The position numbers were made by a program, and so were the translations under genes. 44,035 nt of DNA from an uncultured Patescibacteria group bacterium (lineage in GTDB: Bacteria > Patescibacteriota > JACMRA01), in NCBI GenBank assembly GCA_938041505.1, contig CALITC010000009.1, positions 1 through 44,035 of the forward strand, read 5' to 3'. Of this stretch, positions 4,462-40,400 are shown in pieces. The notes below the pieces were generated by a model. It did not search any database. It was not told the origin of the DNA and saw only the letters and a program-made list of their open reading frames with translations. Position 1 is the first letter of the stretch. Every line of letters starts with the position of its first letter.

Positions 4462-4493
4462 TATTTTGTACCCTTAGACATTGTACAAGGCGT

Positions 4494-4522
4494 ATCATAA
4501 TACATATATTAAGTATTGTCAA
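4494..4522 (-). promoter_or_regulatory. Promoter of the GNAT-ASCH gene
   Basis: On the minus strand: perfect TTGACA (4517-4522), a 17-bp spacer and TATGAT (4494-4499). The predicted start of transcription lies about 26 bases before the ATG. It is one of the best promoters in the window. Confidence 0.7.
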
Positions 4523-4541
4523 GTCGCCAAATTCCCAAGCT

Positions 4542-4673
4542 CTAGGCGGCATTTTCTTTGCCCCTACTCTTAACCCAATACCAAGTAAGGTATATAAGGA
4601 TAGAAGCAAAGGTGACTCCACTTACGATAAGACCACGCTCAAACCACTTCTGAGGCCCAAACTCAATAGTCAA
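4542..4673 (-). pseudogene. 3'-end fragment C of the GT-C/YfhO-like membrane protein gene
   Basis: Encodes LTIEFGPQKWFERGLIVSG, then VTFASILIYLTWYWVKSRGK and a private tail ENAA before TAG at 4542-4544. The stretch 4600-4673 is almost base-for-base identical to 5400-5473 at the end of the intact gene (three differences in about 75 bases), then similarity stops sharply after CAATAGTCAA. This near identity, with no open frame upstream to preserve, points to a recent copying or recombination event. Confidence 0.8.
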
Positions 4674-4756
4674 TTAATCTTTGTATTATCTATTCTATTA
4701 GTTTCACCATAATCATAATTGACCAAAAACCCAAAATCAAATTTGCTTGATTATAT

Positions 4757-5236
4757 ATGAGCAATTATGCGTTTATAGATTCTCAAAATCTATACTTATC
4801 AATCAAAAAATTGAAGTGGAAATTAGATTTCAAAAAACTGAGAACATACCTCAAAGACAAATATGATGTAGAAACTGCTTATCTGTTCCTTGGATATATG
4901 GTAGAGCACCAAGATCTTTATCAAAGTCTTCAAAAAGATGGTTTTATTCTTATTTTTAAAGATAGTATGCGCCTACCGAACGGAACAATCAAAGGCAATT
5001 GCGATGCCGAGCTAGTTCTACAGGCTATGATAGACTACAAAGAATACAATAAAGCTGTTATTATAACGGGAGATGGGGACTTTGCTTGTTTGGTAAAATA
5101 TCTAAGAAAACAAGACAAGCTAGCAAAATTACTTGTACCTAATCAAAAGCAATTTTCAGGCTTGTTAAAAAAAGCAGCTCAAAACGATATAGACTACATC
5201 TCAAGCTTAAAATCAAAATTAGAGTACAAAAAATAA
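4757..5236 (+). CDS. NYN-domain (LabA/DUF88-like) putative ribonuclease
   Basis: A 159-residue single-domain NYN protein of the PIN-like nuclease superfamily. The acidic metal-binding set is visible: the first Asp in AFIDSQN (residue 8), an Asp in NCDAELV (about residue 83), and two in ITGDGDF (about residues 107 and 109). Members are expected to cleave RNA with a divalent metal, but substrates vary and are unknown here. The length is that of a minimal domain with a short basic C-terminus. ATG at 4757 has no Shine-Dalgarno site. It is on the plus strand, between 3'-end fragment C and the intact membrane protein gene. Its last codons overlap the T-run of the opposing operon's terminator. Confidence 0.85.
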   Translation: MSNYAFIDSQNLYLSIKKLKWKLDFKKLRTYLKDKYDVETAYLFLGYMVEHQDLYQSLQKDGFILIFKDSMRLPNGTIKGNCDAELVLQAMIDYKEYNKAVIITGDGDFACLVKYLRKQDKLAKLLVPNQKQFSGLLKKAAQNDIDYISSLKSKLEYKK

Positions 5237-5277
5237 AGCAGACCAGATAAGGACGAAACCTTTCACCGCTCTGCTTT
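5228..5277 (-). terminator. Intrinsic terminator of the 5345-10531 operon
   Basis: AAAGCAGA at 5235-5242 pairs with TCTGCTTT at 5270-5277. On the minus strand the hairpin is followed by ATTTTTTG, about 70 bases after the membrane protein stop. The T-run coincides with the 3' end of the NYN gene. On the plus strand the T-run is missing, though the hairpin may still protect the NYN mRNA end. Confidence 0.6.
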
Positions 5278-5344
5278 GTCGTGATTCTACAAGAATTATA
5301 CTCTTGATTTAATTACTTGTCAAGTGCTAAAAAGTTCATCATTA

Positions 5345-8300
5345 CTAAACTCTTTTTGATTTATAGTCCTTCGCCCACGTCCAAGCAAGATAAATAATTA
5401 TAGAAGCAAAGGTGACTCCACTTACGATAAGCCCCCGCTCAAACCACTTCTGCGGCCCAAACTCAATAGTCAACTCAAGATCATAAGACCCATCCTCATT
5501 CCGAACACAAGCCCCAGGAGCCTCTCCACAAATCACCTCAGGATCAACAACCCATCCATTCTTTCTTAGTACAGTACTATAATGAAAATTATTATACACT
5601 TTTTCTTTATCATAACGACCTCTTAATTTCCAGTCAGGATTAAACGTTTGCGATAAAATAACATGCTGTGGATCAGTTACATTATCCAAATCAATTTCGT
5701 ATTCAGTATCACTGATTTTATTATAGCTTTCTTCTAAGTCTGTAATCCTTTTTGCACTCTGCTCAAGATAAAAGATATTATCATAAGGCTTAGACTCAAC
5801 CAAACTAAAATTATCAAATAAGGTATCAACCTTAGTAAACTGGTCTTTAGGTATTGACTCTAATTGCAACTCTAAATCAGATGCACCATATGGCACCTTA
5901 AAAGATCTCTCAAAAGTATGCCAATTTTGGTTATCAATATTAACAAAAACCCTCTCTTGAGTATTGTCAATATCATTGTAACTAAGCAATAAAGAAAATG
6001 AGGCAGCATTATCACTTCTAAAATCAAAAGATAGGTCGTATTCGTGAAAATGATTTATCCCTATTCTCTGCTTTGTGCAAGCTGTATGTCTAGTTGAGCT
6101 CAAAAGCAAAGACTTATTTCCGTCACTTGAATCATCAGATAACTCCATCTCAATAATAGGATTATCGTCAAAATTATTACAATCACCAACCTTTTTTTGC
6201 CATAAACCTTCCTCAAAAGAGGGATTTAAAATATAATTACCGTCAGAAGTCAAATCTAAATAATTAATTTGAACCTCTTCTATATCAGTCTCTTCTATAT
6301 CTCTATGTTTATAGTATTCTTCTAATGATAATTTTTCCATCATATCACCAGATAACATAATTGAAATGTCACCATATTCTTCTATCTTACCAAGATATTG
6401 ACTTTCATTTGGAAGATTAAATATCTTATCATCTAGCAATATTTGATCTGCCTGACCTTCATAAATTACTTTCGATACAGGCTCAGTATTAAGGCCAGTA
6501 ATCTCAATGAACAAAACTAATTTCTGAGAAGATTCATCGTATTCATAAAAAATTCTAGATTTCTTGCCATTATAGAAAATTTTATAATCCTCAAGAGATT
6601 TTAGGCTTGAAAAATCAGATATATCGTAAATAGAAGAAAAGTATTCTTGGTTTTCTAACTCACCAACCGCAAAATCGAAATCTTGATATCCATACCTATT
6701 GAGCAGATAATCTGTAACTTCTTTAGAGTTTACATTAGAAAAATAATTATTATTCACAAACGAAATCTCGTCTTTGAAAGAAAGATTTTCATACATGGTT
6801 AGATTATTTTCATTAAAAATTTTTCTGAAATTTTTATTACGGTCTAAAATACTAGTATAGTCGGAGGGATCGGAGTTATAATATACATAAAAGTTATTAT
6901 CATTGTCAGCATCTTTATTAGGCACAACAATATACTTCGCATTTAACGAATTAGTAATGTTAGAGAAATCATGTCTCTTTAGTACAGAATTAAATTTTTC
7001 ATTATCCTTAAAATTAACAGATTCTTCTTCTCTCCATGGCGATATATTTTTGAAATTATTTGATAATAAAGAAGAATAATTTAACTTTTGTTTATCGCTT
7101 TCAAAAGAAATCCATTTCGAACTTCTCGGTACCGATAAAACCCTATAGCCTGAGTCTTTATCATTTTCAAGATATTCATTGATTAAGGTATATTCTAGAG
7201 GCATAACTTTTGGTGTATATACAGATTCTATTCTTCCACTGACAATATTTAATGAAGGGATAAATAAAAGTACAGCTATACCAAAAATAAATAATTTTGA
7301 AGCATACTCATACATAACTCTTTTTTTATTGCCTAAGAGATATTGTACGAATAAACCAACTATTCCTGAATAGCCTATAACAATAAAAAGATAAAATTTG
7401 GTTGCCTCTCTAAAGGCGGAGAAACCAGGTATATTTTTAAACAGCCATAAATATAGATCAGGAAATGGCTCATCAATTTGTTTTGAAAGAAGGATTCCTG
7501 CCAATAAAAAAAAGGTAAATATATACAAAAATTTTGCAGCATTTTTTCTCAAGAAGATAAAGGACAAGACTAATACTAGTGGCAAAATGTACAAATATAT
7601 TGAGATATTTTGTACAACAAACCATTCTGGCTTAGCATTATTCCAAAAAGGGTGATGTAAGTGAAATGCTGATAAAAAATTCCAATACTGACTCCCGAAC
7701 AAACCTCTATCTAAAACATCGTTAGAACCTTTTGATGCGAATAACGTTGGTAAAATCCAGTACAGGTTTGTGAATATAATAACAAGAAAAAATATCAATG
7801 CGTTATATAAATAAGAGAATAAAAATTTAAGCCTATTGATTCTAATGGTTGCTATATGAAAAATGAAAAAGATTAAAAAAATTATTAAAAATAGATATAA
7901 TGAACGAAAATCTATATACCCACAAATTACCAGGAAAAATGCAGATATAAAAGTATAAAAATAGCTTTTTTCTTTTAAAAGTTTTATGAAGAAACCGAAA
8001 GAAAAGAAACCGAAAATAAAGGAAAGGTTAAGCAGTAAGTGGCCTTGAGATGTAATAGTAAGGAAATAAGTATTATAGAGAACAAGTAGCACTGAAATAG
8101 AACGAGCCATTTTATTCTCGATAAACTGAGACAATAAAAAATAACTTGCGACTGGGGTTAGAATAATAATAGGTATAAAAACTAAAAACTTTTCTGCTAT
8201 ATTAGATTCAAAGCCAAACTCGCCAAAAATTCTAAAGAAATAATCAAAGGGAAATCTCCACAATATAACATTGAAAGAGCCTAGGGTGTTTCTTGCAGAC

Positions 8301-18420: not shown

Positions 18421-18448
18421 GATTGCATACTTATGCAGTCTTTTTTTT
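18421..18448 (+). terminator. Intrinsic terminator after the 17850 gene
   Basis: GATTGCAT at 18421-18428 pairs with ATGCAGTC at 18433-18440 (one G-T pair), followed by eight T. The T-run overlaps the stop codon of the convergent dnaE. Confidence 0.75.
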
Positions 18449-21290
18449 AAGCAGGTATTTTCTCCAATTTAAGCACCCCCTTCTCTACCAGTTCCTTCTC
18501 TCCGAGCTCATCCAGGCTTCCAGAAACAATCAATGCCTCTAGTGAACGCTTATTAAAGCCTTTGAAAGTACTCATCCTATCCAGAAAATTATCAATATCG
18601 ATAAATCGCCCACCTTTCTCTCGCTCTTCGATCATGTGCGCAATCACATCGCTTCCAAGATTCTTGACTGAGCTTAATCCATACCGAATGGTCGTATCAT
18701 CTACAATACTGAAGTTATCAAAGCTCTGATTCACATCCGGTGGCAGGACCACAATTCCCATTTGCTCACACTCATTAATAGCTTGTGCAATTTTCTCTAA
18801 GCGGCTCGCCTCAGCCGTCATGAGCGCCGTCATAAATTCCACCGTATACTCAGCCTTCATATACGCCGTCCAATAAGCTACCATTCCATAGGCCGACGAG
18901 TGAGCCTTATTGAATCCGTACGCCCCAAATGGGACCATCAACTCCCAAATCTCTTCTGCTTTCTCCTTAGTAAGACCAGAATGCTCCACACAACCATTCA
19001 CGAATATCGGATGTTGCTGATCAATGACGGCTTGAATCTTCTTACCCATTCCTTTACGCAGCTTATCAGCCATCCCCCAATCATAACCAGCTAGCTCAAT
19101 AGCTGTCATCAATAAATCCTCTTGGTAAACAAATATTCCGTAAGACGCCTCCATCCATCCCACCATTTGCGGCACAATATACTCCACCTTCGAAGCGTCT
19201 TTTTTGCGCATAATGTAGTCAGGAATACTCGCCATCGGACCCGGACGATAGAGGGCAACCATCGCCATCAAATCTTGCACTTTGGTTGGTCCCATTTCTA
19301 CAAGGTACTTGGTCATAACCGCACCAGATAATTGGAAGGTTCCCATAGTCCGGCCTTTGGTAAGCAAATCAAAAGTCTTCTCACTCTCCAAATCGATATT
19401 CAACAAATCTATCTCTTTGTTGTGCCGAGACTCGGTAATCTCAATCGCATTACCCAGAATCGCCAAGTTCCTAATACCCAAGATATCAAGCTTCACCAGA
19501 CCTATCTTCTCACAATTTCTCATATCGTACTGACACACCACCATGCCGTGATCAGTATCCCATTGCACCGGGCAATAATCAGTCATTTTAGTTGGACTTA
19601 TCACCACACCTGCCGCGTGACACGAAGCATGCCGGAAATTCGCCTCTATTTTGCGTCCAAGTTCGATAATCCGATTCGCTTCTTCATCGCGCTCAACGAC
19701 CATCCGCAATTCTTCTGATGTTTCCATCGCCCAATCAAAAGTCGTCTTCTTACCCTGAGGGGCTATCGGAATAAGTTTGGAGAGTTTGTCACACTTCTTG
19801 TAAGACACTCCCAGAGCCCTACCCACATCACGCACAGCCGCTCTTGGAAGCATGGTTCCAAAGGTAATTATCTGACACACATGATCTTCACCATATTTAC
19901 GGCGGATGTAGGCAATTACCTGATCTCGCTTGTCATCTGCAAAATCCCCATCAATATCAGGTGCAGAAGGACGAAGCGGATTCAAAAACCTTTCAAATGG
20001 AATAATATACTGGAGCGGGTCAAGAATATTAATCGAGTTGAGCAGTCCAACAATCGATCCGGCAGCCGATCCACGAGTATTAATAACAATTCCATTATCC
20101 CGGCAAAACGACATGATATCTCCAAACACCAGGAAATAATCTGGATATCCTTTGGTAATAATAATATCGAGCTCATACTCAATACGTTTGACATACTCAG
20201 CAATCGGTATTCTTTCAAAATACTCGGCATCGTATCCAGGTAATAAGTCCAGGTTCGGTTTCATCTGCTCAGTATAAGCTTTAAGCTCAACGAACTTTGC
20301 ATATGGGTAGACTTCTTTCCACTCCAGCTTAGTCTTCTCGGGACGAAATCTCGTTATAAAACCAATATAGGTCTCCCATCTTAGCCTCGTCTCTGGCTCT
20401 TGCCCTTCTGGAAGATGGAATATAGGGAAAAATGCTTCACTCGCATACGTATCATAGTCAGTCCGGAAAGTTACATTGAATTCCGCCTCCAGATCTTCCG
20501 TCTCAAAACATTCTGGGACATAGGCATATTCTTTCTTAAGTTGTGCCACCGAAGGCAGAGACAGATTTCGAGGGATTGTGACCCCTGCGGCCCGCTTACC
20601 ATCTCGCACAGCAAGAACTATTCTAAACACCTCTTCGTCTTCAGGTTCCAAATACCTCGGCGCTGGTGATACGACATACCGAACTCCATATTTTTTACAA
20701 ATAGCAACTGCTTGAAGATTCCAAGATTCGACCTGCTCAAGCGAGTCTTCACGCATTTTGACCGCCAGTTCTACCAAAAAATTATCTTTACCTACAGCCT
20801 CAACATAAGCTCCTAGCACTTTCTCAGCTTCAGAGGCTCTGTCAGCCTTAATCATTTGTATAAATTCGTGCTCAATACCACCAAGAACTACTTTGATGTG
20901 AGCTGTATCTTGTGTATATTTTTGCAGATTCTCAAGGGTAAGATGGTATTCAGGGTCTTCTTGCTCAACACGGGCAATCGATATCAGCTCCATCAAATCC
21001 TTGTAACCTTGCTCATCTTTGGCTAGTACTGCCATAACAGAAAAAGCCTCTCGCTTACCATAAGCACCTTGACTCTCACTAATATTCGGTATTTTGATTG
21101 TAAATCCAGTAACCGCATTCACCTCTTTCTCCTTGGCATAGTCTATAAACTCAGGAAATCCAGACCCCGAAGCCTCGTCCGTAATCGCTACCGAAGAATA
21201 ACCTTTGGCCATAGCATCATCGACGAGCGCAGGAATCTTAGGAACAGCCGACAGCAAAGAATAATGAGTGTAAGAACGAGGCAAAAACAT
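18447..21290 (-). CDS. dnaE: DNA polymerase III alpha subunit, short form
   Basis: The replicative DNA polymerase, 947 residues against about 1160 in E. coli. Order: an N-terminal PHP-like domain (about 1-270), then the polymerase core. Catalytic acids are visible in PDIDGDFADDKRDQ (about residue 443) and in KLDILGIRNL (about residue 600). YRPGPMASIP, GIFVYQEDLL and NKAHSSAYG are the usual later core motifs, and a helix-hairpin-helix region near the end follows GLSSVKNLG. The PHP metal motif (H-x-H in relatives) reads RSYTHYSLL, so PHP nuclease activity is probably lost. The protein ends soon after the HhH region, so the OB-fold and tau-binding parts are missing. The start ATG 21290 is preceded closely by GAGGT. 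Confidence 0.92.
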   Translation of the reverse strand: MFLPRSYTHYSLLSAVPKIPALVDDAMAKGYSSVAITDEASGSGFPEFIDYAKEKEVNAVTGFTIKIPNISESQGAYGKREAFSVMAVLAKDEQGYKDLMELISIARVEQEDPEYHLTLENLQKYTQDTAHIKVVLGGIEHEFIQMIKADRASEAEKVLGAYVEAVGKDNFLVELAVKMREDSLEQVESWNLQAVAICKKYGVRYVVSPAPRYLEPEDEEVFRIVLAVRDGKRAAGVTIPRNLSLPSVAQLKKEYAYVPECFETEDLEAEFNVTFRTDYDTYASEAFFPIFHLPEGQEPETRLRWETYIGFITRFRPEKTKLEWKEVYPYAKFVELKAYTEQMKPNLDLLPGYDAEYFERIPIAEYVKRIEYELDIIITKGYPDYFLVFGDIMSFCRDNGIVINTRGSAAGSIVGLLNSINILDPLQYIIPFERFLNPLRPSAPDIDGDFADDKRDQVIAYIRRKYGEDHVCQIITFGTMLPRAAVRDVGRALGVSYKKCDKLSKLIPIAPQGKKTTFDWAMETSEELRMVVERDEEANRIIELGRKIEANFRHASCHAAGVVISPTKMTDYCPVQWDTDHGMVVCQYDMRNCEKIGLVKLDILGIRNLAILGNAIEITESRHNKEIDLLNIDLESEKTFDLLTKGRTMGTFQLSGAVMTKYLVEMGPTKVQDLMAMVALYRPGPMASIPDYIMRKKDASKVEYIVPQMVGWMEASYGIFVYQEDLLMTAIELAGYDWGMADKLRKGMGKKIQAVIDQQHPIFVNGCVEHSGLTKEKAEEIWELMVPFGAYGFNKAHSSAYGMVAYWTAYMKAEYTVEFMTALMTAEASRLEKIAQAINECEQMGIVVLPPDVNQSFDNFSIVDDTTIRYGLSSVKNLGSDVIAHMIEEREKGGRFIDIDNFLDRMSTFKGFNKRSLEALIVSGSLDELGEKELVEKGVLKLEKIPA

Positions 21291-21373: not shown

Positions 21374-21895
21374 TTACTGAATCATCAGCTGCAAGTTCTG
21401 TACATCGCTTTGTAGATCTGCAATATCCGCCTGCATCACCGAGAATGAAATAATTGTAGTCAATAACAAAAAGAATAGAGATAATGCAATCAACACATCC
21501 AAGCGAAGCAAGAAGTTGATTGGATTGCTAATTGGAGCAACGTTCTCTACCAATTTTGGCTCGATCTCAGATAGCTTCAAAGCTTTCTTTTTGGTAGTTG
21601 TCTTTCTTTTCTTAGTTGTCACATTCTTTTTTGCTGGAGCAGCCTTAGTAATCGCTTTTGTCTTTACAGTTTTTGATTTACTCACAACTTTTTTAACAGT
21701 CTTCTTAGGAGTTGCTTTTTTTGTTACTGCTTTTTTGACAGTTTTTGCTGGAGGTGATTTTTTCACAACATTCTTAACTGTAGGCTTAGCTTTTTTCAGC
21801 TTTGGTGCCGTAACTTTCTTTTTAAGGATTTTTTTTGTTGGTTTTTTTGCAACAGTTTTTTTGATCTTTTTTGTTTTAGTTTGTATTTTAGCCAT
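21374..21895 (-). CDS. Histone-H1-like lysine-rich protein with C-terminal membrane anchor
   Basis: Residues 1 to about 115 are a low-complexity tail of Lys, Ala, Thr, Pro and Val with repeated KK-TVKK and AKK units, like the C-terminal tail of histone H1 and bacterial H1-like DNA-binding proteins. Then comes a short acidic linker (LSEIEPKLVEN), a strong membrane helix (about 131-152, LDVLIALSLFFLLLTTIISF) and a C-terminal leucine-heptad stretch (MQADIADLQSDVQNLQLMIQ) that could form a coiled coil. If the tail is cytoplasmic, this would tie DNA or RNA to the membrane. It has a promoter (TTTGCA, 18 bp, TATACT) and a short A-rich leader. It lies directly upstream of dnaE. The combination is unusual. 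Confidence 0.7.
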   Translation of the reverse strand: MAKIQTKTKKIKKTVAKKPTKKILKKKVTAPKLKKAKPTVKNVVKKSPPAKTVKKAVTKKATPKKTVKKVVSKSKTVKTKAITKAAPAKKNVTTKKRKTTTKKKALKLSEIEPKLVENVAPISNPINFLLRLDVLIALSLFFLLLTTIISFSVMQADIADLQSDVQNLQLMIQ

Positions 21896-21921
21896 ATTTT
21901 TTTGTTTAGCTTACAAGTAAC

Positions 21922-21951
21922 AGTATACACCACTTTTGTAAGATCTGCAAA
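21922..21951 (-). promoter_or_regulatory. Promoter of the lysine-rich protein gene
   Basis: On the minus strand: TTTGCA (21946-21951), an 18-bp spacer and TATACT (21922-21927), about 27 bases before the ATG. Confidence 0.5.
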
Positions 21952-22323: not shown

Positions 22324-22932
22324 TTAGTAATTTCGTAAAGTACCGTCATCATATGTACGACACTGCCCTACTGGAACTGATCCAAGATTAACTATTCCGC
22401 CTAAATCAATAGTGCGCCCGCCAGTATGAATGACATGAATTGCAAATTGCACTGGTGCGTTATTTGCACTACTTGTCAGTAGCCAATAACCTCTTTGTTT
22501 ATACCATCGACGATCTCCAGATCTGGAATTATACTTAGAAGCACCTAAAGAGCGCCAATTATAGTTTGTGGTATAAGCAAGTGGAACACTCTTTACATTG
22601 TAACCTGTAACATAAGAAGATTTCATTTTGAATTCAACTCTTCTCACGCAATTTGATCGGGAACCAGCTTCGGCAATAACTCGAATCTGCATCACTGATG
22701 CATGGTTACAAAAGCGAACATACTTAATCTCACCAAAGATACCATCTCTTTCTTGGTAATTCCTAGAAGCGCTTGCTCCTGAAATCGGCAATTGAGATAG
22801 TAAGACTCCCAACATAAGCGCACTCGAAATAGCCAGTTTTTTTGGAATCAGCTTAGAAGCTATCTTAAGCGTCGGGCTTTTAGATAACTCAAAGAAATTA
22901 TTGAGCATAATAAATAACTCCATATATATCAT
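22324..22932 (-). CDS. Secreted protein of unknown function, 202 aa
   Basis: The N-terminus has a long basic region and a hydrophobic core (about 33-50, LAISSALMLGVLLSQLP) ending in SGASAS, a Sec signal peptide. The mature part, about 150 residues, looks beta-rich with many Tyr, Arg, Ser and Gly, and has three cysteines (RFCNHA, SNCVRR, GQCRTY). No domain is recognised. Possible starts are 22932, 22923 and 22908. The promoter region holds a perfect palindrome over the -10 box, so a repressor probably controls the gene. It is monocistronic, with its own terminator. It could be an exported surface or host-contact protein. Confidence 0.6.
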   Translation of the reverse strand: MIYMELFIMLNNFFELSKSPTLKIASKLIPKKLAISSALMLGVLLSQLPISGASASRNYQERDGIFGEIKYVRFCNHASVMQIRVIAEAGSRSNCVRRVEFKMKSSYVTGYNVKSVPLAYTTNYNWRSLGASKYNSRSGDRRWYKQRGYWLLTSSANNAPVQFAIHVIHTGGRTIDLGGIVNLGSVPVGQCRTYDDGTLRNY

Positions 22933-23051: not shown

Positions 23052-23080
23052 TTGACATCTGTATGATTACTTGGTAATCT
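23052..23080 (+). promoter_or_regulatory. Candidate promoter of the SanA-like gene
   Basis: TTGACA at 23052-23057, a 17-bp spacer and the weak box TAATCT at 23075-23080. An alternative -10, TATGAT at 23062-23067, has no good -35. Either gives a very short or no leader before the GTG at 23089. Confidence 0.35.
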
Positions 23081-23088
23081 TTAGCAAC

Positions 23089-23688
23089 GTGTCCAAAAGA
23101 TATACCATCCTTGCAATAGCAGTCTTCGCTCTCCTTCCTTTATTGGGGTTTAACTTGGCGTTATTAAGCAAACCAGATTCCATGCCTCAAACAGCAATGG
23201 TCTTCGGTGCGGGAATTTTGGACGAAAACACCCCTACAGCCGTTCTCAAGAACCGATTAAACAAAGCTATTGAGCTATACGAAGATGGAGATATTGAAAC
23301 AATCTTAGTCACTGGAGATAATCGCGAAGAAAGTCACAACGAACCCCAAGCCATGAAAACATACCTGTTAGAACAAGGAATTCCCGAAGAAAACATTGTA
23401 CAAGATTTTGCAGGACGCCGGACTATAGAGAGCTGTTGGCGAGCAAAGAATGTATTTGGTGGTAGTGGCGTCTACACCATCACTCAAAATTTCCACTTGG
23501 CAAGAGCAACCTACCTCTGTAGATCTTTTGGCTTGGATGTAGTACCTCTAGAAGCCAAAAACGCTAGCTATCAAGGGGGGTTTAACGGATATATTCGCGA
23601 AATACCTGCATCTTGGGCTGCCTTAATCGAAAGCTTTAATTATAAGTCAGCCACAACAGGAGACGGCACCGAACCCCAAATTAATTAG
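23089..23688 (+). CDS. SanA/YdcF-like DUF218 membrane-anchored protein
   Basis: About 199 residues: an N-terminal anchor helix (SKRYTILAIAVFALLPLLGF) and one DUF218 domain outside the membrane. Motifs are TAMVFGAGILDENTP, the VLKNRLNKAIELYEDG helix, ILVTGDNREES, the NEPQAMKTYLLEQGIP helix, VQDFAGRRTIESCWRAK and ITQNFHLARATYLC, which match SanA-like members closely. Such proteins affect envelope integrity, and their chemistry is still poorly defined. The ORF can be extended to TTG 23071, but GTG 23089 gives a normal anchor start (MSKRY) and fits a near-leaderless mRNA. It is plus strand among minus-strand neighbours. No clear terminator of its own follows. Confidence 0.8.
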   Translation: MSKRYTILAIAVFALLPLLGFNLALLSKPDSMPQTAMVFGAGILDENTPTAVLKNRLNKAIELYEDGDIETILVTGDNREESHNEPQAMKTYLLEQGIPEENIVQDFAGRRTIESCWRAKNVFGGSGVYTITQNFHLARATYLCRSFGLDVVPLEAKNASYQGGFNGYIREIPASWAALIESFNYKSATTGDGTEPQIN

Positions 23689-25417: not shown

Positions 25418-28400
25418 CTACGGCAACACCTGACAATCTCCAGAATGTTCAATTGGCGTGGTCGCGTCCTCCATCACCACCGCACATATCTGTGTGGCTC
25501 CAGCTGGCCTACTAGCAATTGGAATCTCATACTGAGTTGTATCAAAGTGCTCTAATCCTGTACTCGCTGCAGTTTCAGTATCCCAGTAGAACCGAATATG
25601 TCTTCCTGCTATTTCTGGGTTAAATCCTTGTGTTGAGAACGTTACTCGGTAGAAATCTCCATTGGTTGTGTCGTTGACCAATGTAGCGTTCGTGATTCTC
25701 ATAGTATAGCTACCGGTACCTGCGCCTAAGTTGCTCACTACAGTGTAATTACCCGCTGCCAAGTCAGTAAATTGATACTGTCCTGCACTTCCTGCGCTAA
25801 TCGCTCTATCGGCATCTCCAGAGAGTATAAAGTCAGTAGTCAGAAGTGGTGTTTCATTGTCTTCTAAGGTATTTGGATCTCCGTCCAAACCATCAGGCTG
25901 ATAGATTCCATCTCCGTTGACATCAATAAATGCGAATCCAGTGATTGATGCGTTGTTCGTCACCACATCTTGAGTTTGATAGAAGGCAAACGCTTGTTGC
26001 TGGTTGAGACCAAATTGATTGAAGGCATACACTGCTTCGTCTACCACCCCTAGACTCAATCCATCACCGCCTGGCCCGTGCACTCCACCTCGACGACGCG
26101 TTGTTATATGATCCTGCCCTGGTAAGTTAGCAAGCTTTCTGATCGTGTACGAAGCCGGAGATCCGTCTATCTCTGCTGGCAGTGCTTTCCAATTACACAC
26201 ATCACTTCCGGTATAACTTAGAGAGTTCAGGGTTCCAAGACTACCATAGTTCAGCCCACTACAATCAAGCACAATACCAGTGTTGTTGTTCACCAGTTCG
26301 TAATCTTGGTTCCCAACAACTTCGTCAAAATCTCCGTTACTGTAGCTACTAATCACCCCATCTCCGTTAAGATCCAAGACTGAATATGCTGCTAGTTCAT
26401 TGGTAAACACATAGGTGTAATTATTGGTGACATCTGTTCCAGTTGTTAGTACTTGTTTTCTTGATAAATTGAAGCTAAACGAACTATTCATGTCATCAAA
26501 ACAGCCAAACAAAGTCATACACTGAGGTTGAATAGTATTAATAATCGAATCTGTGGTTTCTACAAATGGAATATATGAGCCAGGGGTATTGGGGTCATCT
26601 TGGAATAACTTGTAGAAACCAGTCTCAATTCCAGTAAACGTATAGTTTCCGTTCACATCAGTCGGTGCATCAGCCGAGATAATCTGACCATTCGGTCCAT
26701 TAATCTTAACGGTAGCACCTACCAAGGCTTGTTCGTTATCGAAGGTTTCAGGATCACCAGGATTTCCTAAAATACCGTCATCCCCATTTACTTCAAACGT
26801 TTCATTGAGTGTACCTCTGTCGATAAATACATTTCCTTGAATACTGTTATCTGTCCGTGGTTCAAACGCCCACCGCACCCAGTTTTTACCTTGCGGTGCT
26901 AAAGTAAAGGTGTTTGTTAGCACTCCAGTCGAGTTGCTAGCCAAGATAAGAGTTGGATCGTTGATGGTGAGATCGATAGTGTAGGTTCCTGGTTTGAGTG
27001 TGCTATTGATAAAGTAACTGTCTCCTAAATTATTGATATCTACACATCTGTTAATTGCTGGTATACCACACGTTGGAGTAATATAATCTGTATTTATTAT
27101 TGTTTCATTCGGCTGACCTTTCTCATAAGTTAATACAACTGTGTAATCCCATGTTGCCACACCCTCACTCTCGATATTATTAATGGCAATCTCTCGTCCT
27201 CGAGCTGTTTCGTTAGGACTCTCTTCGATCACTCCATCCCCATTGTTATCTACGAATGCATCTGCTCCGATATACCCAATATATCCATACGTCATATCTC
27301 TATTAAGTAGTTCAGAAGTACCTCCCAACACAGTGATATATCCACCAGAAGAACAATTAGCACATTCAGTCCCAGTCGGCGGTGCGTTAATGACCACAGT
27401 ACTGTAAGATCCCTCTGGAATACCATGCCCTCCTGGAATCCAACTAAACTCACCATTTGCGTCGGTGATTTCTGTGGCTACCAATTCACCGCTACCATTC
27501 CGGATTTCAACGGTGTACCCCACTAGAATCTCATCGTTATCGAAATCTGTTACAAGCTGATCGTCTGCTCCGTCTACGTCGGCACCTCCGCCAACTCCAC
27601 GATTAACATAAACCTGTCCACTAATTTCAGTACCAAAAAGAGGGTTGAATCCGTATTTATACGTCGTCGACTGACCTACAGTTTGTGCGTGATTCTTAAC
27701 TAACTCTCCAGCCTGAATTTCGGTGTAATGCGGCGAAGATGTATTAGCATCAATCGGTTCAATATCTATCATTTCCACTTCATAATCTCCTGGAATTACA
27801 CCTGGAATACCTCCAAAAGCAACACCACTATAACCAATCGCAGGAACCGAATTAGACTTAACATTATACGGCACCACTCCAAGAATATCTCCCGTGACTG
27901 CGTCTCTAAGTTCAAAACTTCCATATACATTTGAAGTCGGAGTTGGTACGGACCCACACGATTGTAAGTAGCAAGAATTTTCATTACCTGATAGTGTTAA
28001 GTCTTGGTTTTGATCAATATATGGATATGCTTCCACCTCACCTGTATACAGCAATGCTTCGTCTTGCACTATAACACTACCTGGTGTCAGTGGTGTACGC
28101 AACACTGGATAGTTTGGCGCATTTGACGGATAATTATCGAAGAAGATCGAGTTAACTTCATACGCTGGAGCAATATGATCACACTCCTTAGCCCGTACAC
28201 CAGTGAGCGAGCTCTCATCAGTTACCGTACCTTGCCTCACAACCGCGTACTCTCCTGGTACTATTCCATAAAAGCCTCCACTGCCATCAGAAAATTGTAC
28301 ATTTGTATTATCAAACTTATAATCTCCATTCGCGTTTGTGACTGTTGTTGGCGGATTAGCATTCCACACGGCTAACGGTACAGGGTCTTGAAAACCGTTA

Positions 28401-31400
28401 TAACACTTAATTAATTCTAAAGTCACCCCGTCATACGCAAAGTCATTATCATAGTCGTAGTCGTAGCCACTAGTGTTAGCAGGGTCATCAGTCACTTCCG
28501 TTTTATCATCTCCGCCATCTTCGTCCAAACCGCCTGTATAAGGTGCGCTGCTACCATAGATTGGTCTATTGTGCCAAATCGTTCCTTCAATCTCAGACTC
28601 AGTTTGGTCAATTACCTGGTTAGAAAAAACTCGAGTCTCTATATCTGTCACCTCGGTACCAAGATATATAGTCCGCGTCCAGTTTGTCTCATCAGTCTGA
28701 TCGAAGAATGTTATAGGATACTCTCCACTTGACCCAAAGGCTCCATTGTTAGCTGTACCAAATGCATCACTTAACGACACGGTGTAATCTCGTGGAGGTA
28801 ACTCTTCAACACAAGGCGAACTACCGTTAATAGAATACGTACCTGCCGATTGTTGACCATTAAAGGAGTTGTAAGAAAGGCTGTAGCTTGCTCCTTCATT
28901 CGCAGTAATATCATAATCAACACCCATATCGTAGTTCCCATCTTCGTTTATATCGATATATAAGAACGGACAGATTCTTGCCGTAAATTGGAAGCTCATG
29001 TCTTGCTCGTACGCTTTGTTGTTGAGACCTGTACCAGCGTCGTTAGTTATCACCACTGGAATGACAGAAGGATTTGGCGTGATTGACTTAATACCCACCA
29101 AGCTATTGTTCGGCACTCGCACTTCATAGTCCCCTACTCCTAGTCTATCGAATGAATAGTTTCCTTCCGCATCTGACACCGTTGTATCTACTTCTTCGTA
29201 GAGTGTTGTGGATGTGTTGAGCTTAAAGAGTTTTACTGTCTGATCTACTACCGGCACATCATTATCAAACACCGTAAGTTCGAAGTTATCAGCTCCAGCA
29301 ATATCATAATTATTATTCTCATCACGATCCACATACAAGAAACCAAAGATTGCCCCAAGAGTAAAGTCTGGATTCTGCGTGAAACCGAAATCTTGTAAAA
29401 TATAGTCTTGGCTTACCGCCGTAATATCTTGGTAGAAATCATTCGGATCTGTACCCGACTGCATTACTTCATTAGTATTCCAATACTGACCTGGGAAATA
29501 AGTGTTTACGCCCTGCAACTCTACGCGGTAATCATCAGCAAATAGCCCAGTGAAACACTCCAAACCATTACCACTTAAAGTAACCGAGGTGTACGGATTT
29601 ACTAAGTCGCTACCTCGATACAGATTAACCACAATACCACTAAGCTGTGTTTCGGTCGTTGGGTCATACACTGCATTAAAGTCCAAATCTTCAAACGTGA
29701 CTTGTGGACAGATCGTCACATCCCCTGTGTACCCAAAGTCAAAATTCTGTGTTTGACCTGGACTCAAAGTAATTTGCTGCACTCCACCAGTGGTTGAGAG
29801 AGATCCAAGTGGCTTGTCTGTATCTGCTACATCTAGTGTGTACTGACCTGGCGCTACATTGGTAAAACAATTCGTTCCTCCAGTAATTGCAATTGCTGGA
29901 TAGTTAGTAGACCCTTGCAGTGTAGTTAATTCCACTATTGTTCCATCAGGAAGATATGTATCCAATCCTGCATCATATTGACCGTTGGAGTTAAAGTCTT
30001 CAAAGACATTGGCGGCACAGATTTGTCCATTTCCATTGTAACCAAATTCTGGTTCATACTTCTGACCAAATACTAAATTCGAGGTGGTATCAGGGTTGTC
30101 GTTAGGCGAGCCATTGGCAATTGAAGTGGTGATCGTGTAATCCGGATACGCACTAGACTCAATGATGTAGCTTTCTCCTACCTCGGTATATTGTGTATCA
30201 AAACAGTTTTCTCCTTGCGTACTAGTGATCGTCTCAAGTAATGATCCAAGATCATCTTTGAGTGTAACCGTAACCAAACCGAACCGGAATTCATTTCCAT
30301 CGAACACACCGTTCCCGTCGTCGTCTCTATACACCACAGGGCAGATTAGTGGTCTTCCATCATATCCGAATGGTGTATTTTCTGTATTCCCAGCGGTTGT
30401 AGTCACGTTAATCACCGTTCCTCCAGTCGTCGAAACCGTATTCTCTGGTCTTTCTTGAGATATAATGTACGATCCTTCCAGCAGCTCTGTGAAACAGTTA
30501 GTTCCGGCTGAGTTAGTAGTAAGTGAACCGATTGTTGTGTTCGAAGTATCTTTGAGTGTTGTCGCCACCCCTGTTAAAGTAGGCTCACTATCAAACGCTC
30601 CGTTTCTATCCAGATCCTGGAATGTGGGGGTTGGACAGATCGTCGTGTTCCCCTTGTATCCAAATGGTGTCTCAACCTGCACGCCAAATGCTTGGTTGAA
30701 GGTGTAATTAACCGCTGTTGATGTCAACACCCCTCCATTCGGTACATCTTGCTCCACAAAGAAATCATAATCCCCTCCTGTATCTCCAGTATCTACCGCA
30801 GCAAAACAGTTGCTACTGTTGGTAAGAATAGTTTCAAGTAAAGTTCCCGAATTATCTGTTCCTCGATAGAGTCTAGTATTCAAGTTCCCAATCTCATCCT
30901 CCCCATCTTGCCACACCCCATCTTGGTTGTAATCCGCGAAAGTTGGATTTGGACAAATCTCAGCGGTGTTTTCGTATCCGTAAGACTCATCGTAGATATT
31001 AGTTGTCGCACCATTTCCAGATCCTGGAGTTGCCGTCACTGTTCTAATCAGCGCCTGGACACCTGTAAGCTCAATATCTGAGACAGGGTTATCCGTTTGA
31101 ACCGTATATACTGCTTCCAGTAGTTCAGTGGCACACGTTTGCCCACCGGCATCACTCGTCGTTACACTCACTAAATTACCAAATTCATCTCTAACACGCC
31201 AACCAAATCCAGGCAGTGTAGCTTCAAGTCCATCTAAGACCGAATTAGCGTTGTTATCCATATATACAGAATTTAAACAAACATCCACAATACCTTTGAA
31301 CCCAAAGCTTACATTCTCATCTTGGTTTGGCAGTGGATCAATATTCACACTAAGACTTGTTGAAGTGGTTTCTACTGAGTTACTAGGAGCGGTGATATTG

Positions 31401-34400
31401 ACTTGGTAGTCTTCAGCCTCCGCTCCACTTACATCCTGGAAACAATTGAGTCCTTGATCGTCAGTTGTTAGACTTGCAATTGTGTTGGTCGTGTTGTTGT
31501 CTATCAAATCTACGTTCAGCCCTGCAATATATGGCTCATTAGTATTTCTAGTTCCGTCTTGATTGTAATCTCGGAATGGAAGTGGGCAAATATCTATCTC
31601 ATTCGGTAAGACATCAAACGTAGTTGCAATAGTGGTTAGCGGCCCAGTAGCTCCTTGCACAGTTGTTGTTACTTCGTGAGGACCTTCCGCGTCTGGAATC
31701 GGATCTACATAACACTCCCCATCAATCACATTTCCATTCTTCGTCAAAGGTGTGGAGAATCCTGGACCCGAGAATGTCATACTACAAGCCACCCCATCCA
31801 AAGGTAATCCATTACCGGTATCAACCAATCCGGTGGTGGTTGCGTCAAAATTATATCCTACATAGATAAGCTGGTTGTTAAACACTACTGTCCCTGAGTT
31901 AGTTGGTTGCCCTGGGTTGTTTGGATCTTCTTCGGCCTCCCCTGAAGGATCAAAGCTGAAGCCATTCCCCGCACTTGCCTCTGTAGCAAATTCCAAAGTC
32001 ACCGGTCGTTGTACCTTGTTCCCTACTTCAGTAAAGCCTGTTCCTGTAGGGCTCATACCTGTTGGGATATCCATCTCGATTACATAATCATCTGGGATCT
32101 GCGGCTGGAAACATAGCGAACCATCAGCTTGAATTGTTTCAATTGGTGTTGCTAGATCTGTAGCTAGATATAAGGTGACTGCTAGTGTGTTGCTTCCATC
32201 AATCAAACTCACATCGCTTCCTCCAAAAACTCCATCCTCATCCACATCATTAAATATTGGGTGTGGACAAATATTCTCATTTCCGTTGAAACCAAATGCT
32301 CTGTTCTCAGTGCCACCTGCAGCTAAGTTAATCGTGAAGAAATTGTTTCCTCCTGTTGGCAAAGTCTGTGTTCCGCCAGGGCCACCTGTTAAAATTTCTA
32401 GTGTGTACGTTCCATCAAAGAGGGCTCCGAAACATTGGTAGCCTGTATCTACGCTAGTCTTAGTGTCAATTGTTGCCCCTGAGTTATCTTTGAGCCGCAA
32501 ACTACTTCCGGCAAATAATAGCTCGCTTCCATCATAACTTTGATCGCTCGTATCATCTCTAAATACCAATCCACAAATACTTGCATTGTTCAAAGCTTTG
32601 ACTTCTGTTGGAGTAGCCCCTGTCTCAAATTCTTGCCCTGCTACCGTCACTCGAGAAATCATTGTTGCAGTTCCTAGGTTACCTTGTGCGCTCATTGGTG
32701 TAGTACAGTACCCGCCATTCGTCGTCCCAGTAACTATCTCTGGAGTCTGCCCGCTCACCGTGAGCTCATTTTCACATGGCAAACCATTCGCTAAATTTGT
32801 TGTTCCGTTATGCTGTTGAAGATATGGAGAGGTAAGTGTCGGTGCTTGTCCCAGTACAATTGGGTCTGGATTAGAAGTCGTAGCTCCTGGGATAAATCCA
32901 CCTGTCAAATCAATATTATAGAGTCTATCAAAAGTTGTACTTGGTGTAGTAAGGGTTCCAGAATCTCCAAGAATATTGAGTACAAAGCTATACTCACCTT
33001 CCACCTCACTGCCGCCTTCCAAAAGCCCTGCCTGTGGAATCACAACCTGACATTCACCATTAGCTGCCACTGTAGAATTAAAGGTAAATGTGGTAGTATT
33101 AGGATTAGTGACCACAAACTCACAAGTTGCATTTTCAAGTGCACCATCTGTAATGGAATCTAATAATCCGTTGACTGTAAGAGTTACGTTTTCATTCAAG
33201 AAGGCAGGGTCTGGTGAATTCGATTGAGTGCTAAACTCTGCCTTTCCAGCATTAGCTGAGTCTTCCTTGGCTACATCACTTGGTGAACCAACGAGCGGGA
33301 ATGTATCCTGTCCACTTAAGAATGAATGAGTGACTCCATCTACCACTAGATTTACTTGTGAAACTACATCCACTGACGCTCCTGTGAGGGTACTTGCTGG
33401 TACTTCAAATTGACATTGGCCAGTGCTATTAATTGTTGAGCTATACAACTCGAATCCGGCGTTATCGGTAACTTGAATCAAACAAGCAGTTCCTTCGTCA
33501 ATCGGTGTTACACCATCGTATTTGTAAACAATCGGTGAAGTAAGAGTGTTAACCTCATCTCCAACCAAAGGGTCTTTGTCAGTAGTATTTGCTCCACCAT
33601 ATATAATACTTCCTGTTAAATCAATATCAAAAGCTCTATCAAATGGTACTGGATCGGTAATCAGCGTACCTGTATCTCCTGCAATCTCTACTGTGACATT
33701 ATATGTACCAGCGACTGTAGGCAGTTCAAATTCTGTAAAGTTATAGCTACACTCACCTCCCACCATATTCGCGCTGGTGAAGGTTTGATCGAAGCTACTT
33801 GGTCCTGTGATGCGGAATAAACATGGTAAGCCGTTTAACTCTTGATCGTTACCGCTATCTACATACCCTGTAGAAGTAATTGTCGTTGTCTGGCCGATGA
33901 TTTGTACTGCAGCTGGACTTAAGGTTGCGTATTGCGGCTTGGTCTCGTTTGGGGTGATTTGGGCTTTAGCTAGATTAGAACCTTGAGGAGCTACGGTGAA
34001 TTGCAATGTTACACTCTCTGCTGTGGCCGCTACATCTGTACCTGTTACAGTAATAGTAGCATCGTAAACACCAGTTGCTGTTGGCGCAGTAAAACTTGAT
34101 GGCATCACACACACTCCATCAACCACATTACCTCCGGTGATTGTTTCATTATAGTTACCGCTATCTCCAGTGACTGTAATATCACACAACACATCATCGT
34201 AATAGCCATCTCGAATTGGATTACCGTGCACATTTAAAATATTTTCAATCTGCAAATCATACGTTACATTAGCTTGAACTGGAAATGGATCTGAAGCAAA
34301 CGTTGCCGACGCTAGCCCAGCTTCTGGAATCTGATGCTCGTAGATTGTTCCGTCTATATTTACTGCATCAAACCCATTAATTCCACCTGAGGATTCCGAA

Positions 34401-37400
34401 ATAATATTATTATCTTTATCTTGATAATATAGCGCAATTCTACCCCCAGCACCACGTCCAGCCTGGTCACCAGAACCATCTCCTCCACGAGATTGTATCA
34501 ACCCTGAACCATTTAATTCTTGGACATCAAGCCAAATCGAACCACCAGAGCCACCAGGTAAATATCTAACACCAGAAGCTCCATTTTCTCCGTTTGCAAT
34601 TATTGCACCATTGAGCAAGAATGAATTAACAACTTCAAGCTTCACAGACCCTGCGCCATCACCATCTCGAGCCCCTCCAGACCCAAGCTCATCAGGTTCT
34701 GACTTCGATCCATATGCCGGACCTCCTAGACCGGAGACGAACGATGATCCGCCGTCACCACCTTTGTTTCCATAGCCACCGCCACCAGCGTAACCGCCAC
34801 CTAAAATAGTACCTGCGCCTGGACCATAACCCTGACCTAGAACTGGATCATTTGTATCTTGTCCTGATATATACCCTTTTTCAGAAACGTTAATCTCTCC
34901 TCCTGCTTCAATTATCAAATTATCCAAAACCAAGTCCAGCTTATGCTCCTCGGTTGTGCTATTTTTACTATGAGTCAAAACACCGGTCGACCCTATAGCA
35001 ATATCATTAAATGTTCTTTGATCGACACCACCAAACTCAACCACACCTTCCAAAACAACATCAAGCGGGCTTGAAGAAAATATCTCCTCATCAAAAGTAA
35101 TTTCACTTTCAGCGGGTACAAACAACGACTCGTCGATTGACACACTATTGGTAAAAACAACCTTAGCTTTATTGTTTACGGTGACCTCTGTGTATTCTAG
35201 CACACCTGGATTAAACTGCTTATCTATCTCTGTTATAGCTACGTTAGTAGAGGTAGAGTTGATGTTGTCACCATTATCAATAGCTAAATCTTCTCTTGAG
35301 GTTGACTCAACATGTAAGTAAATAGTTCCAGCTCCTCCAATTTGAGCGGTAGAAGTTCCAGCAGCTGCGGACAACAAACCTCCAAAATTGTTCGTATTTA
35401 CATGTGCTGCAACACGACCACCCGCACCACCACCACCATGGTATGTACCTCCACCGCTGCCTACATTCTTACCTGCGCTTCCATTAGCAGAAATAGCACC
35501 TGTTCCCGTGAAATCATTGGTGTAGATAAGTACGCTACCCCCTGCACCGCCTCCAGGTCGCTGCTCTACTGCAGCAGAAGCATTCATATTAATAGCGCCA
35601 TTTACTTCCAAATCTCCTACAATATCTAATGTTATTGCACCCCCTCCGAATCCACCTATTGAAGAAGTCCTACTACTTCCAGAGCCACCGCTTCCAAATT
35701 CACTTGGATACTTGACTGATCCATACTGGGGTGCATTTACGTCTATTGGGTTGAGGCTTATACCTCCATAACCACCATGACCAGCACCATTGCCTGAAGC
35801 AGTATATTTTCCTCCACCAGGGCCTTCTCCATCAGTTGGGCCAAAACCTCCAGCATATCCAGCCCCAACTCCATCAATATCGCCGTTAATTATGGCACTA
35901 TTAGCGATAATTTTAATCAAGGATTTATCTTCCAACGCTGCTGTAACACCTGTTTCCAGTAGGAATTCATCAATATTACAGTGAATTCCAGCAATTGTTT
36001 CGTTGGCACTAATTATCCAATCCTGCCCACCATGGTCTACGTCACACCCTAAGGCAGTCCGCTCTTGCGAATTTGACTCGATTGAACTACCTACGCTGTT
36101 CACCGCTCGGACTCTGAAGTAATATGTTGTGAATTGATCTAAGTCAGCGATTACAAGACTTGTATCTACACTAACTCCATCGTTGTAAGTTTGCACATTA
36201 CTAAAGTCACTTTGAGTCGCATATTCAATAATATAATCAGAGATCGGCTGTCCATTATTGCCAGGTTCAGTCCAACTAAGCTCAATCACCCCAGAGGCCG
36301 GTTCAGTTAGTACCAGATCGTTAATACTATTAGGTGGTAAGTCTACACCATAATCATATGCCGCTATAAGTTGGGCAGCATTCCCTAAGATCGATGTATA
36401 CTGCACATCTTTGTCAGTACCGGTGTTAGCTGGAGCTCGACCAATATACGTTTGAGAGTCAACGAACTCCATATCATCTAAATAGATTCCATCAACAGTA
36501 ATAGGCGCTGCTTGAATAGCATCTACGGTATTATCCTCTAGCGCAGAATACTTCACCTCAAGATATTCATCTAAAATAGCAATTTCGGGGTCGGTAAGTG
36601 CTTTAGTAAAAATCAAAATTTCGTTAATACCACCTTCAAATTTGCCACTGTTGGCATGTGTTCCTATGAACCCACTATTACCAGTGGCAAGATGTGCTGA
36701 AGAGCCAGGTAAAACGCCTCCGAGCACACCATTATAGTAGATTCTTTTGTTAACTCCTGACTCTAACACACCTACATGTCTACTGTTCTCTCTAACCGTA
36801 AATCCTGGCACAGCAATAGTAGCAGCTGTAAAATTATACCTTTGGAAATAAGCACTTGTATCAGCATTATACCCTAAGCGAGTATCCCTACCATTACTAA
36901 ATCCTTGGGTGCCAATTATCCACTGCTCACCTTTGACGGAATCTCTAAAGGAAGAGGTTACCATAGTATAATTGGTGTTCACAATGCCGTTGTAGTTTGT
37001 AGCAAACAAATCCCCACCATCAAAATATATCGACGGTAATGCTTGGTGCGGGCTCTTTACCAACGTAGGAGTAGATGAGGAAGTGGCATCAATGCCTTTT
37101 CTTCCTTCCCATGTGGTAACTGTGCTGTCTAAGTCCACCAACACATCTGAAGCAGCGAAGTGAGTATATAATTCTGTATCACCTAACAGAGCTCCAAAAC
37201 TAAATACAGATCGATCACTTTTAGAAGTTGTAGATGTAGAAGCGTATTGCACAGTAAATGTATTAACTCCAGAATTCAATGATGGGATTCTCAGCCATAG
37301 CGGCGTAAATTCTGCTCCGCAAGACCCATCTAGATAATAATCAATAGGAGTACCTGTTGAATCTAACACACTTATATTAGAACAATCCACATCCAAAGCT

Positions 37401-40400
37401 TCAAGTTCAATTGCTGACTTAGTATCAATAGCAATAACAGTCTCATGGTCGGTAACTACATCACCTGTATCATTGTTAATTTCCACCTCTTGAACATAAT
37501 ACAGAGGAGAAAAGTAATCACCTTTTATCACTACATTATTCCCACCTTGATCAGGACCTTCTGTTGGAGTAATTGTGTAGATCTCTGGAAGCTTATACTC
37601 ATAACTATCGGTAGAAGTAGTTGTTATATATTCTGATACATGAACCGTTATGTCTGTAAAACCATCTCCCACACCATTAACACCTTCAAGTTTAGATTGT
37701 GGAACCACAGCTTCAATAAACTGTGCATCAGCACTTACCACAGAGAGTGGTGAGAAGTTAGCTATGGATACAGAATCTGTTGACTGAGATTCGCTAGAGA
37801 TGTTAGTAACTGAAGGTAAGTTAGCTATATCATAAAGCCTATACTTATGATTCAAATAACCCCTTATTGCATCATTATTAACAGAGTCATTCTCTTTAAG
37901 AACTATCAACTCAGAAATCTCCGCATCAAGATAATCAGTTCCTTGAGAATCTAAACGAGCACCAATAAAAGCTTCGTTTGGTGTAAGATTGGTTGTTGGT
38001 GCTTCGGTAGTTGAGTCTTTAGTAACAGCATTAACAAACCCTTCTGCACCTCCTGAATCAGCACGTAATTCGAACAAGATAGGTACGCTGTTATCTTCAT
38101 TCAAAATCAAAGTCTGATGAGGAGTAATACTATCCCAATACTGAAAATTAATATTTTGGTTACCTGCAAGTTGATATCCTTGCCGTTTTTGGAAAGTAAA
38201 ACTACCCCCTGTACCATCCACTTGGTTAGTATATACATACCCTCGCTCAAGAGTGCTCGAACTTGGTTCGTTATTCTTAAGCACCGCAAAATGAGTAAAT
38301 TCTGAATGAAGTACTTCAGGGTCAAGCTCAAAATAATCACCTGCACCGTCAAAAACTACTGCTGGCCGAGAATTTATCGCATCTCTTACAATAACTGGGT
38401 CACCTGCAACAAGTCCATGCCTACCATAATTGGATCTATCAAACCAGTCTGGAACTGTCGCTCCATTTGCAATACTATTAAAACCATCACTGTTTGCTTG
38501 CATCCAGAGAGTTACATTACTAGAAGTCAGTGGATTTCCAAAGCTAAAGTTATCAATATTTGATTCGGCAGATAGTGTAGGATTCCCGTAAGTCATCGTA
38601 ACAACATTATCTCCATCTACAAGCGTAGGGTATTTAATCCACACTAGTGTCTCAGCTGTATTGCAACCACTCTCTATGAAGTACTCAAGATTACTCCCGT
38701 TAGTATCCTGAAAACGTAAGTCTGAGCAGTCACTCTTCATTTGAGATAAAGATCTTGTATCTAACTCAACCAATACTTCAGCATCTGTTATAGAAGCACC
38801 TGTGGGATTATTAATCGTGATATCTTTCTCAAAAAGGAAGATATCATAACTACCAAAACTTACTGTGGTGAGTGTACGAACTTCACCAAATTCATAAGTT
38901 GGCATATCTTGTACATCGCGCAAATCGTATTTCTTACTAAGATAATCATCAACAGCATCTCGATCAGAAGATCCCAACGGCTGATCAAACAATATAAGCT
39001 CTGCCATTTCAAAATCAGCCTGACTCATAAATAACCCTTGAGTTTGAGGATTTCCATAAGATGTTGAAGCAGACCCTTGAAATGCACCGTTATAGTAAAA
39101 CGTACTTGACGTGCCAGCCCTAAAAGTACCTAGCTGAGTCCAATCTAGTGTTGCCGCTGGGCCAAAATCATGGAAGCTAAATCCTCCGTATATCCAGTTG
39201 TATCGATTATTCCTAATTCTATGACCAGCACCATTAGCTCCGCCATCTCCGTTATAGAACAAATTAGCATTAGGAATGGTATTCAGCTTGCTGACCGAGT
39301 ATGTTGTAAACTCTGTACCTGTCTGCAATACTGGTCCTGAGAAACCACTATTCAAAAGGTTTATTGATGGTTTTCCATCCCTTTTATTATAGTTTATGTC
39401 TGCGCCAGAGAGCTCCGTAGCCAAAATTGAGTGAGATTCATTAGCTGAGTTAGACCATTCAGTGACTTTATCATTGGCATCTAGAGATATTCCATTGTTT
39501 GCTTTAAACCATCCAACATTAGCACTATCACCAAGTATACCAAAGCTAAAAGGTGTAATATTACTTCTTGATTCTACAGTACTGCTGTCGTAAATTAATT
39601 CTATAGAAACGCCGTCAATCCCTAATACCGGAATTTGTACCCAAATAACTGTATTTATAGTATTACAACCACCATCTATCCAGAATGGTATATCAACACC
39701 ATCTAGCTGAGCTCTAATATTTGTACAGTCAAAATCAAGAACTCCTGAATCAATAAGATCTTTAGTATCAACTACCAAATCAATCTCTTCTTCAATTAAT
39801 GTGTCACCAGTGGGATTAGAGATGTCCACCGCTTGTATCTGACCATTACCAGAAAAACCATCTCCATTTATCAAAACCGTATTACCACCCTCCACCGGAC
39901 CATCAGCAGGAGAAACACTACTAATTTGAGGGTTAACATACGAATAAGCACTGATCGCTTGATTACCATACTGTGTAGTCAGTGTAACATTAACAGAGCC
40001 AGATCCATCACCCCCTAAACTTGATTGAGGTGTTACCACTTGAATTTCCTCATCGCTAATAAAAGTCAGTGCTGATGGGGAATCACCACTTGCAAACTCA
40101 ATATCGCCAGCTGTCAGATTTGCGGGAAAAGAATCACCTCTAATGGTTATAGTCTGGCCTCCACTAATAGGGCCAGTTGAAGGGGAGATACTACTTATGG
40201 TTGGGCCAGCAAACGTGTATCCATTTACCAAGGTATCGCTTTGAGTATCAACATTAGTAAGTGTAACATCCACAGAACCTAGCCCGTTGTTAGCTACATT
40301 AGCTGGGCTGACTATCACCTCAATTTCACCAGTTTCGAGTATATCTTCAATCGTTGCATTTATCCCATCAAATTGAACATCTAGTGCAATAAACGTGGGG

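Follow-up and report, generated by a model that had tools for sequence, protein, structure and literature searches.

In the reading that we favour, at a probability of about 0.53, the open reading frame (ORF) of 173 amino acids (aa) at 21374-21895 on the minus strand of the window (the whole stretch of 44,035 nucleotides analysed here) encodes a genuine small membrane protein, limited to its lineage and presumably expressed, with a lysine tail that is most likely generic, a polybasic cytoplasmic tail such as its own genome also puts on unrelated membrane proteins. This is a more economical reading than the proposal of the first-pass annotation that the protein fixes the chromosome or nascent DNA to the membrane, an interpretation which is possible but weakly supported.

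Anatomy of the Lysine-Tailed Protein

The ORF and its parts are as follows:

21374-21895, minus strand: lysine-tail ORF, 173 aa, putative bitopic membrane protein (ATG start, TAA stop; hydropathy and charge)
21584-21895, minus strand: tail rich in K, T, V, A and P, residues 1-104, predicted disordered and cytoplasmic (composition; AlphaFold2 model)
21434-21526, minus strand: membrane helix, residues 124-154 (hydropathy peak at 134-153; helix 125-172 in the model)
21377-21433, minus strand: short acidic C-terminal end, residues 155-173, about three heptads, predicted outside

By composition, residues 1-104 hold 42 K, a single R and neither D nor E. Residues 1-118 comprise 44 K, 18 T, 13 V, 12 A and 8 P, with a net charge of +42. 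They are followed by the hydropathy maximum (residues 134-153) and by the acidic end of 19-20 residues, which holds three D and neither K nor R; the stretch between tail and helix (residues 105-123) is of mixed composition. With a lysine fraction of 25%, the ORF ranks first among the 778 ORFs of 100 aa or more found in 717,916 bases of its own genome, and its tail is unusual in degree. Only two weak arrays of tandem repeats were detected in the tail.

The first-pass annotation had described an H1-type tail joined to a membrane helix and a leucine-heptad C-terminus. Its coordinates are exact, although it does not mention that the gene lies on the minus strand, and tail, helix and heptad are indeed present. 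The tail, however, exceeds a textbook H1 tail in T and V and falls short of it in A and P, and the heptad is mixed rather than built from leucine (F151, M154, I158, L161, V165, L168, I172); the likeness to H1 is one of composition only. When the last 20 residues are shuffled, approximately 1% of the permutations fill all a/d positions of some register; the heptad is real but short. Because it spans about three repeats in a single orphan sequence, the oligomeric anchor that had been suggested is only a possibility. AlphaFold2, run on the single sequence, returned one helix (residues 125-172) and an unstructured tail at a mean pLDDT of 65.5, with block means of 92-95 across residues 131-150; such a model says little on oligomers.

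Comparison of the protein with Pfam and PHROGs (both at E ≤ 1) and with the PDB (E ≤ 10) gave no match, and nothing above a cut-off was obtained from NCBIfam. An FtsB/FtsL-like divisome protein was considered for its combination of helix and coil and rejected, given the lack of a Pfam match and a coil of about 20 residues.

The segment preceding the helix carries a charge of +42 and the segment following it one of -3. By the positive-inside rule, a single-pass protein with the tail in the cytoplasm and the short acidic end outside is thus predicted. The opposite orientation, named in the first-pass annotation as the finding that would speak for a surface or cell-contact role, would put the tail outside the cell, where it might serve cell contact or the capture of polyanions. 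The window does code for a protein of very large size that is probably exposed at the surface (25418-44017), but the charge asymmetry speaks against an extracellular tail, as does the lack of a signal peptide ahead of it, and we regard this arrangement as highly improbable. The ORF of the large protein, on the minus strand, comprises 6199 aa, extends almost to the window end and contains many repeated segments; by reading, it looks like a surface protein.

Which Strand Is Coding

A second ORF overlaps the lysine-tail ORF in antisense, and a promoter-like site precedes the latter:

21516-21920, plus strand: antisense ORF, 134 aa, hydrophobic, TTG start
21922-21951, minus strand: promoter-like site TTTGCA-18-TATACT, immediately before the 173-aa ORF (consensus match only)

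The two ORFs cannot be told apart by synonymous codon use (0.108 for the 173-aa ORF against 0.123 for the antisense ORF), and together with the lack of relatives of the minus-strand protein this leaves some room for the view that the plus-strand ORF is the gene, or that neither is expressed. We consider this very unlikely. The minus-strand ORF is the longer one and is favoured because it begins with ATG rather than a lone TTG, because it shares the direction of dnaE at a distance of 83 bp, and because proteins of the same genome with a Pfam-confirmed family bear similar tails. Further support comes from the promoter-like site just upstream, although eight such sites were found in the region against 4.3 expected by chance, and from the coherent layout of a helix with a clear charge asymmetry.

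Search for Relatives

The class was represented by six metagenome-assembled genomes: the genome of the window (G000; 1,124,582 bases on 26 contigs, completeness given as 68.8%) and five others (G001 to G005). In a full-length search up to E ≤ 10, no relative of the 173-aa ORF was identified in these five, which are 78-85% complete, such that absence of the gene elsewhere in them is not certain. The one extra match is located in the own genome and has three stops inside.

At the level of the phylum, a search of 379 genomes at E ≤ 0.005 retrieved two non-self matches. One (E 6e-4) is the start of a large protein with a signal peptide and a coil, the other a frame with stops; neither is a relative, and no convincing one was found among the 378 other genomes. 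The C-terminal 66 aa, compared with 58 genomes at E ≤ 1, gave ten non-self matches in nine genomes (E 0.018-0.36). All ten were judged to be chance similarities, either stop-containing frames or membrane segments; the proteins contributing these segments (FtsX, FtsH, transporters and others, assigned by reading) carry no comparable lysine-rich tail. Phage records and viral contigs contained no relative either.

Neighbourhood and Linkage to dnaE

The genes next to the lysine-tail ORF are the following:

18447-21290, minus strand: dnaE, 947 aa, ending after the HHH domain (Pfam DNA_pol3_alpha, finger, HHH_6 and PHP; family alignment)
22324-22932, minus strand: 202-aa ORF, no family found, upstream neighbour in the same direction as the 173-aa ORF
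23071-23688, plus strand: DUF218 gene, the divergent dnaE neighbour in G001 and G005

That the lysine-tail gene lies directly upstream of dnaE, as previously noted, is correct: both are on the minus strand with a gap of 83 bp. The linkage is not conserved in the class, for which six genomes were examined. The upstream regions of dnaE, read in the other five, contain the gene in none of them (0/5). Instead, dnaE is preceded by DUF218 genes in G001 and G005 (49% and 46% identity, respectively, to the DUF218 gene of the window), by a 209-aa ORF in G002, by an 85-aa membrane protein in G003, and by a 448-aa multi-span, MurJ-like protein in G004, the last three assigned by reading. Relatives with the same layout and dnaE linkage, which the annotation had proposed to look for, were not found in these genomes. 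In the window, it is the lysine-tail ORF and the 202-aa ORF, both on the minus strand, that separate dnaE from DUF218. Matches to the 202-aa ORF in the class are confined to two short pieces in G004 (L082, L083), the larger of which is a frame with a TAG inside and perhaps a decayed copy.

Two further observations concern dnaE in the relatives. In G001 it consists of two ORFs that overlap, 3722-4327 and 4324-6588 (L035:3722-6588), for which a frameshift, a sequencing error or a truly split gene are all possible. In G005, a TatA-like protein with a lysine-rich C-terminal tail (L034:11044-11274, minus strand) adjoins dnaE downstream.

DnaE itself is short throughout the class (932-956 aa in five of the genomes) and terminates directly behind the HHH domain (window 18447-21290; L032, L033, L034, L036). 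In most other genomes of the phylum that were searched, the open frame measures 1075-1311 aa. A separate scan of genome contigs with DnaE recovered contigs of the same five class genomes, under labels in mutual disagreement (Peregrinibacteria, SR1, Patescibacteria, Gracilibacteria and Paceibacterota), and two unrelated bacteria. The region past HHH usually provides clamp binding, an OB fold and tau binding, and judging from the sequence it is missing from the class DnaE. Conceivably, a lineage-specific tether could keep replicating DNA near the membrane beside the C-terminally short DnaE and partly replace clamp or tau contacts. The short DnaE is class-wide while the gene for such a tether is found in the own genome only, and we give this idea hardly any weight.

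Lysine-Rich Tails on Unrelated Proteins

The generic reading of the tail draws mainly on a scan for comparable tails, defined as a 30-aa stretch with a net charge of at least +12 and at least nine K in ORFs of at least 60 aa. For the own genome, the scan covered 717,916 of 1,124,582 bases (64%; the window and 35 further stretches) and used mechanically called ORFs, some of them spurious. Ten of 1655 ORFs passed, and half of the ten have a predicted membrane helix:

21374-21895, minus strand: the 173-aa ORF
Signal peptide, DUF1775 domain (Pfam E 5e-9), helix and lysine-rich C-terminal tail
192-aa multi-span protein with lysine-rich C-terminus
G000:C4:25882-26880: cyclophilin with lysine-rich N-terminus, helix and Pfam Pro_isomerase domain (E 4e-29)
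430-aa protein with basic N-terminus and helix, lytic-enzyme matches only weak

Two of the four further helix ORFs, the DUF1775 protein and the cyclophilin, thus belong to a Pfam family above the cut-off. The five ORFs without a helix encode ribosomal proteins L2 and L20, GrpE, a glycosyl hydrolase 57 (GH57) and a sigma-70/TsaE fusion. In 355,234 bases of the five relatives, two of 708 ORFs passed, one of them with a helix; the tail of the TatA-like protein of G005 stays under the threshold. The habit of adding lysine tails is clearest in the own genome.

The fusion joins a primary-type sigma-70 factor (regions 1.2, 2, 3 and 4) to a C-terminal TsaE, the ATPase of the tRNA t6A pathway (L110:7117-9264, that is G000:C4:27117-29264; L132, L133, L134, L135, L136). 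Near full-length matches free of internal stops, with frames of 719-742 aa, are present in all six class genomes, and the domains were confirmed by Pfam in G000, G001 and G005. No paper on such a fusion was among the literature matches listed.

Like the 173-aa ORF, the cyclophilin begins with a lysine-rich tail followed by one membrane helix; it differs in carrying a folding enzyme after the helix, placed outside the cytoplasm by the charge rule, and in its shorter tail (72 aa before the helix, net charge +17). In the six cyclophilin orthologues, taken as the best match per genome, the segment preceding the helix measures 20-72 aa, some of these lengths being upper limits since the first ATG, GTG or TTG was taken as start, and its net charge ranges from +1 to +17. 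Such tails therefore seem to come and go while the enzyme is kept. Since similar tails are found on the cyclophilin and on the DUF1775 protein, a tail of this type alone is no pointer to chromosome work.

As a generic tail, the lysine-rich segment would probably act through bulk electrostatic forces at the inner face of the membrane. Its charge would set the orientation of the protein at insertion, according to the positive-inside rule; it would press on acidic lipid head groups and may bind any polyanions nearby, probably with no dedicated chromosomal partner. Several points count against the generic reading. The tail of the 173-aa ORF is the longest of those found, and just 2/708 ORFs exceeded the threshold in the sample of the other five genomes. 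Unlike the cyclophilin, the protein possesses no other domain, and so its function must lie in the tail, the helix or the short end. Moreover, an anchored polycation of this size is expected to bind nucleic acid if any is near.

For lysine-rich tails, RNA is as good a ligand as DNA, and the basic tails of some insertases bind ribosomes. By analogy, the tail may keep ribosomes or RNA at the membrane. It would suit this role that ribosomal proteins L2 and L20 rank with the most basic cytoplasmic proteins sampled and that secE and nusG (the latter recognised by reading) are encoded a few genes upstream of the 173-aa ORF. We found no conserved linkage to genes of secretion or translation, though, and an anchor for RNA or ribosomes appears rather improbable to us.

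Comparison with Known H1-Like Proteins

The closest parallel, compared by description, is Rv3852 ('H-NS') of Mycobacterium tuberculosis. An excerpt of PMC8233713 presents it as a nucleoid-associated, DNA-bound protein whose lysine-rich repeats resemble those of H1/H5 and which a C-terminal helix tethers to the membrane. The same excerpt reports that the protein becomes nucleoid-condensing when deprived of this helix, and gives its distribution as M. tuberculosis and slow-growing relatives only. Its status is disputed: in a statement of PMC6155035, which cites Odermatt 2017, the nucleoid function is disproved, whereas a passage of PMC10665949 counts Rv3852 as an established nucleoid protein. 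The view that such a function is not known for bacterial H1-like proteins does not hold in light of the description in PMC8233713; the literature already contains a lysine-rich nucleoid protein anchored in the membrane, albeit a contested one. The 173-aa ORF shares the basic region, the helix near the C-terminus and the inside tail with this layout, as far as predictions go, and differs by a tail of 104 residues devoid of acidic residues and by an acidic end with heptads.

By analogy with Rv3852, the protein could be a membrane-anchored nucleoid protein whose tail binds DNA non-specifically and whose helix keeps part of the chromosome, or nascent DNA, at the membrane. The layout, which equals that of Rv3852 in the excerpted description (PMC8233713), the predicted cytoplasmic tail and the position next to dnaE are consistent with such a tether. 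Against it stand the lack of relatives and of a conserved dnaE linkage in the five other class genomes, the similar tails on proteins with extracytoplasmic jobs such as the cyclophilin and the DUF1775 protein, and the reported refutation, in the statement of PMC6155035, of the nucleoid role of Rv3852 itself. HU, furthermore, was found in all six class genomes, such that no chromatin protein is obviously missing. On balance, we consider a DNA tether unlikely.

The long lysine-rich, low-complexity region (42 K in 104 residues) is a trait shared with the H1-like proteins AlgP, chlamydial Hc2 and the Burkholderia family NF038053, for none of which we know of a membrane helix. Against NF038053, the 173-aa ORF scored 6.5 bits at a cut-off of 80 and so falls outside that family. 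AlgP has been linked to the spacing of polyphosphate granules (excerpt of PMC9239181); hence, H1-like tails can serve polyanions other than DNA. Prokaryotic transmembrane histones, described in 2024 and said in an excerpt of PMC11390915 to lack DNA-binding residues, likewise join the name of histone to a membrane helix, but they are families defined by a folded histone domain, and the 173-aa ORF has no histone fold. Our literature search found no paper on histone-like nucleoid-associated proteins of Patescibacteria.

If DNA tethering were true, the protein would add to Rv3852 a second, apparently independent example of a membrane-held bacterial H1-like protein. The occurrence of H1-like lysine tails on a folding enzyme and on other membrane proteins as well means that composition alone is no proof of a chromatin protein; on the reading favoured here, the lysine tail of the 173-aa ORF is most likely one more generic polybasic tail at the cytoplasmic face of the membrane.
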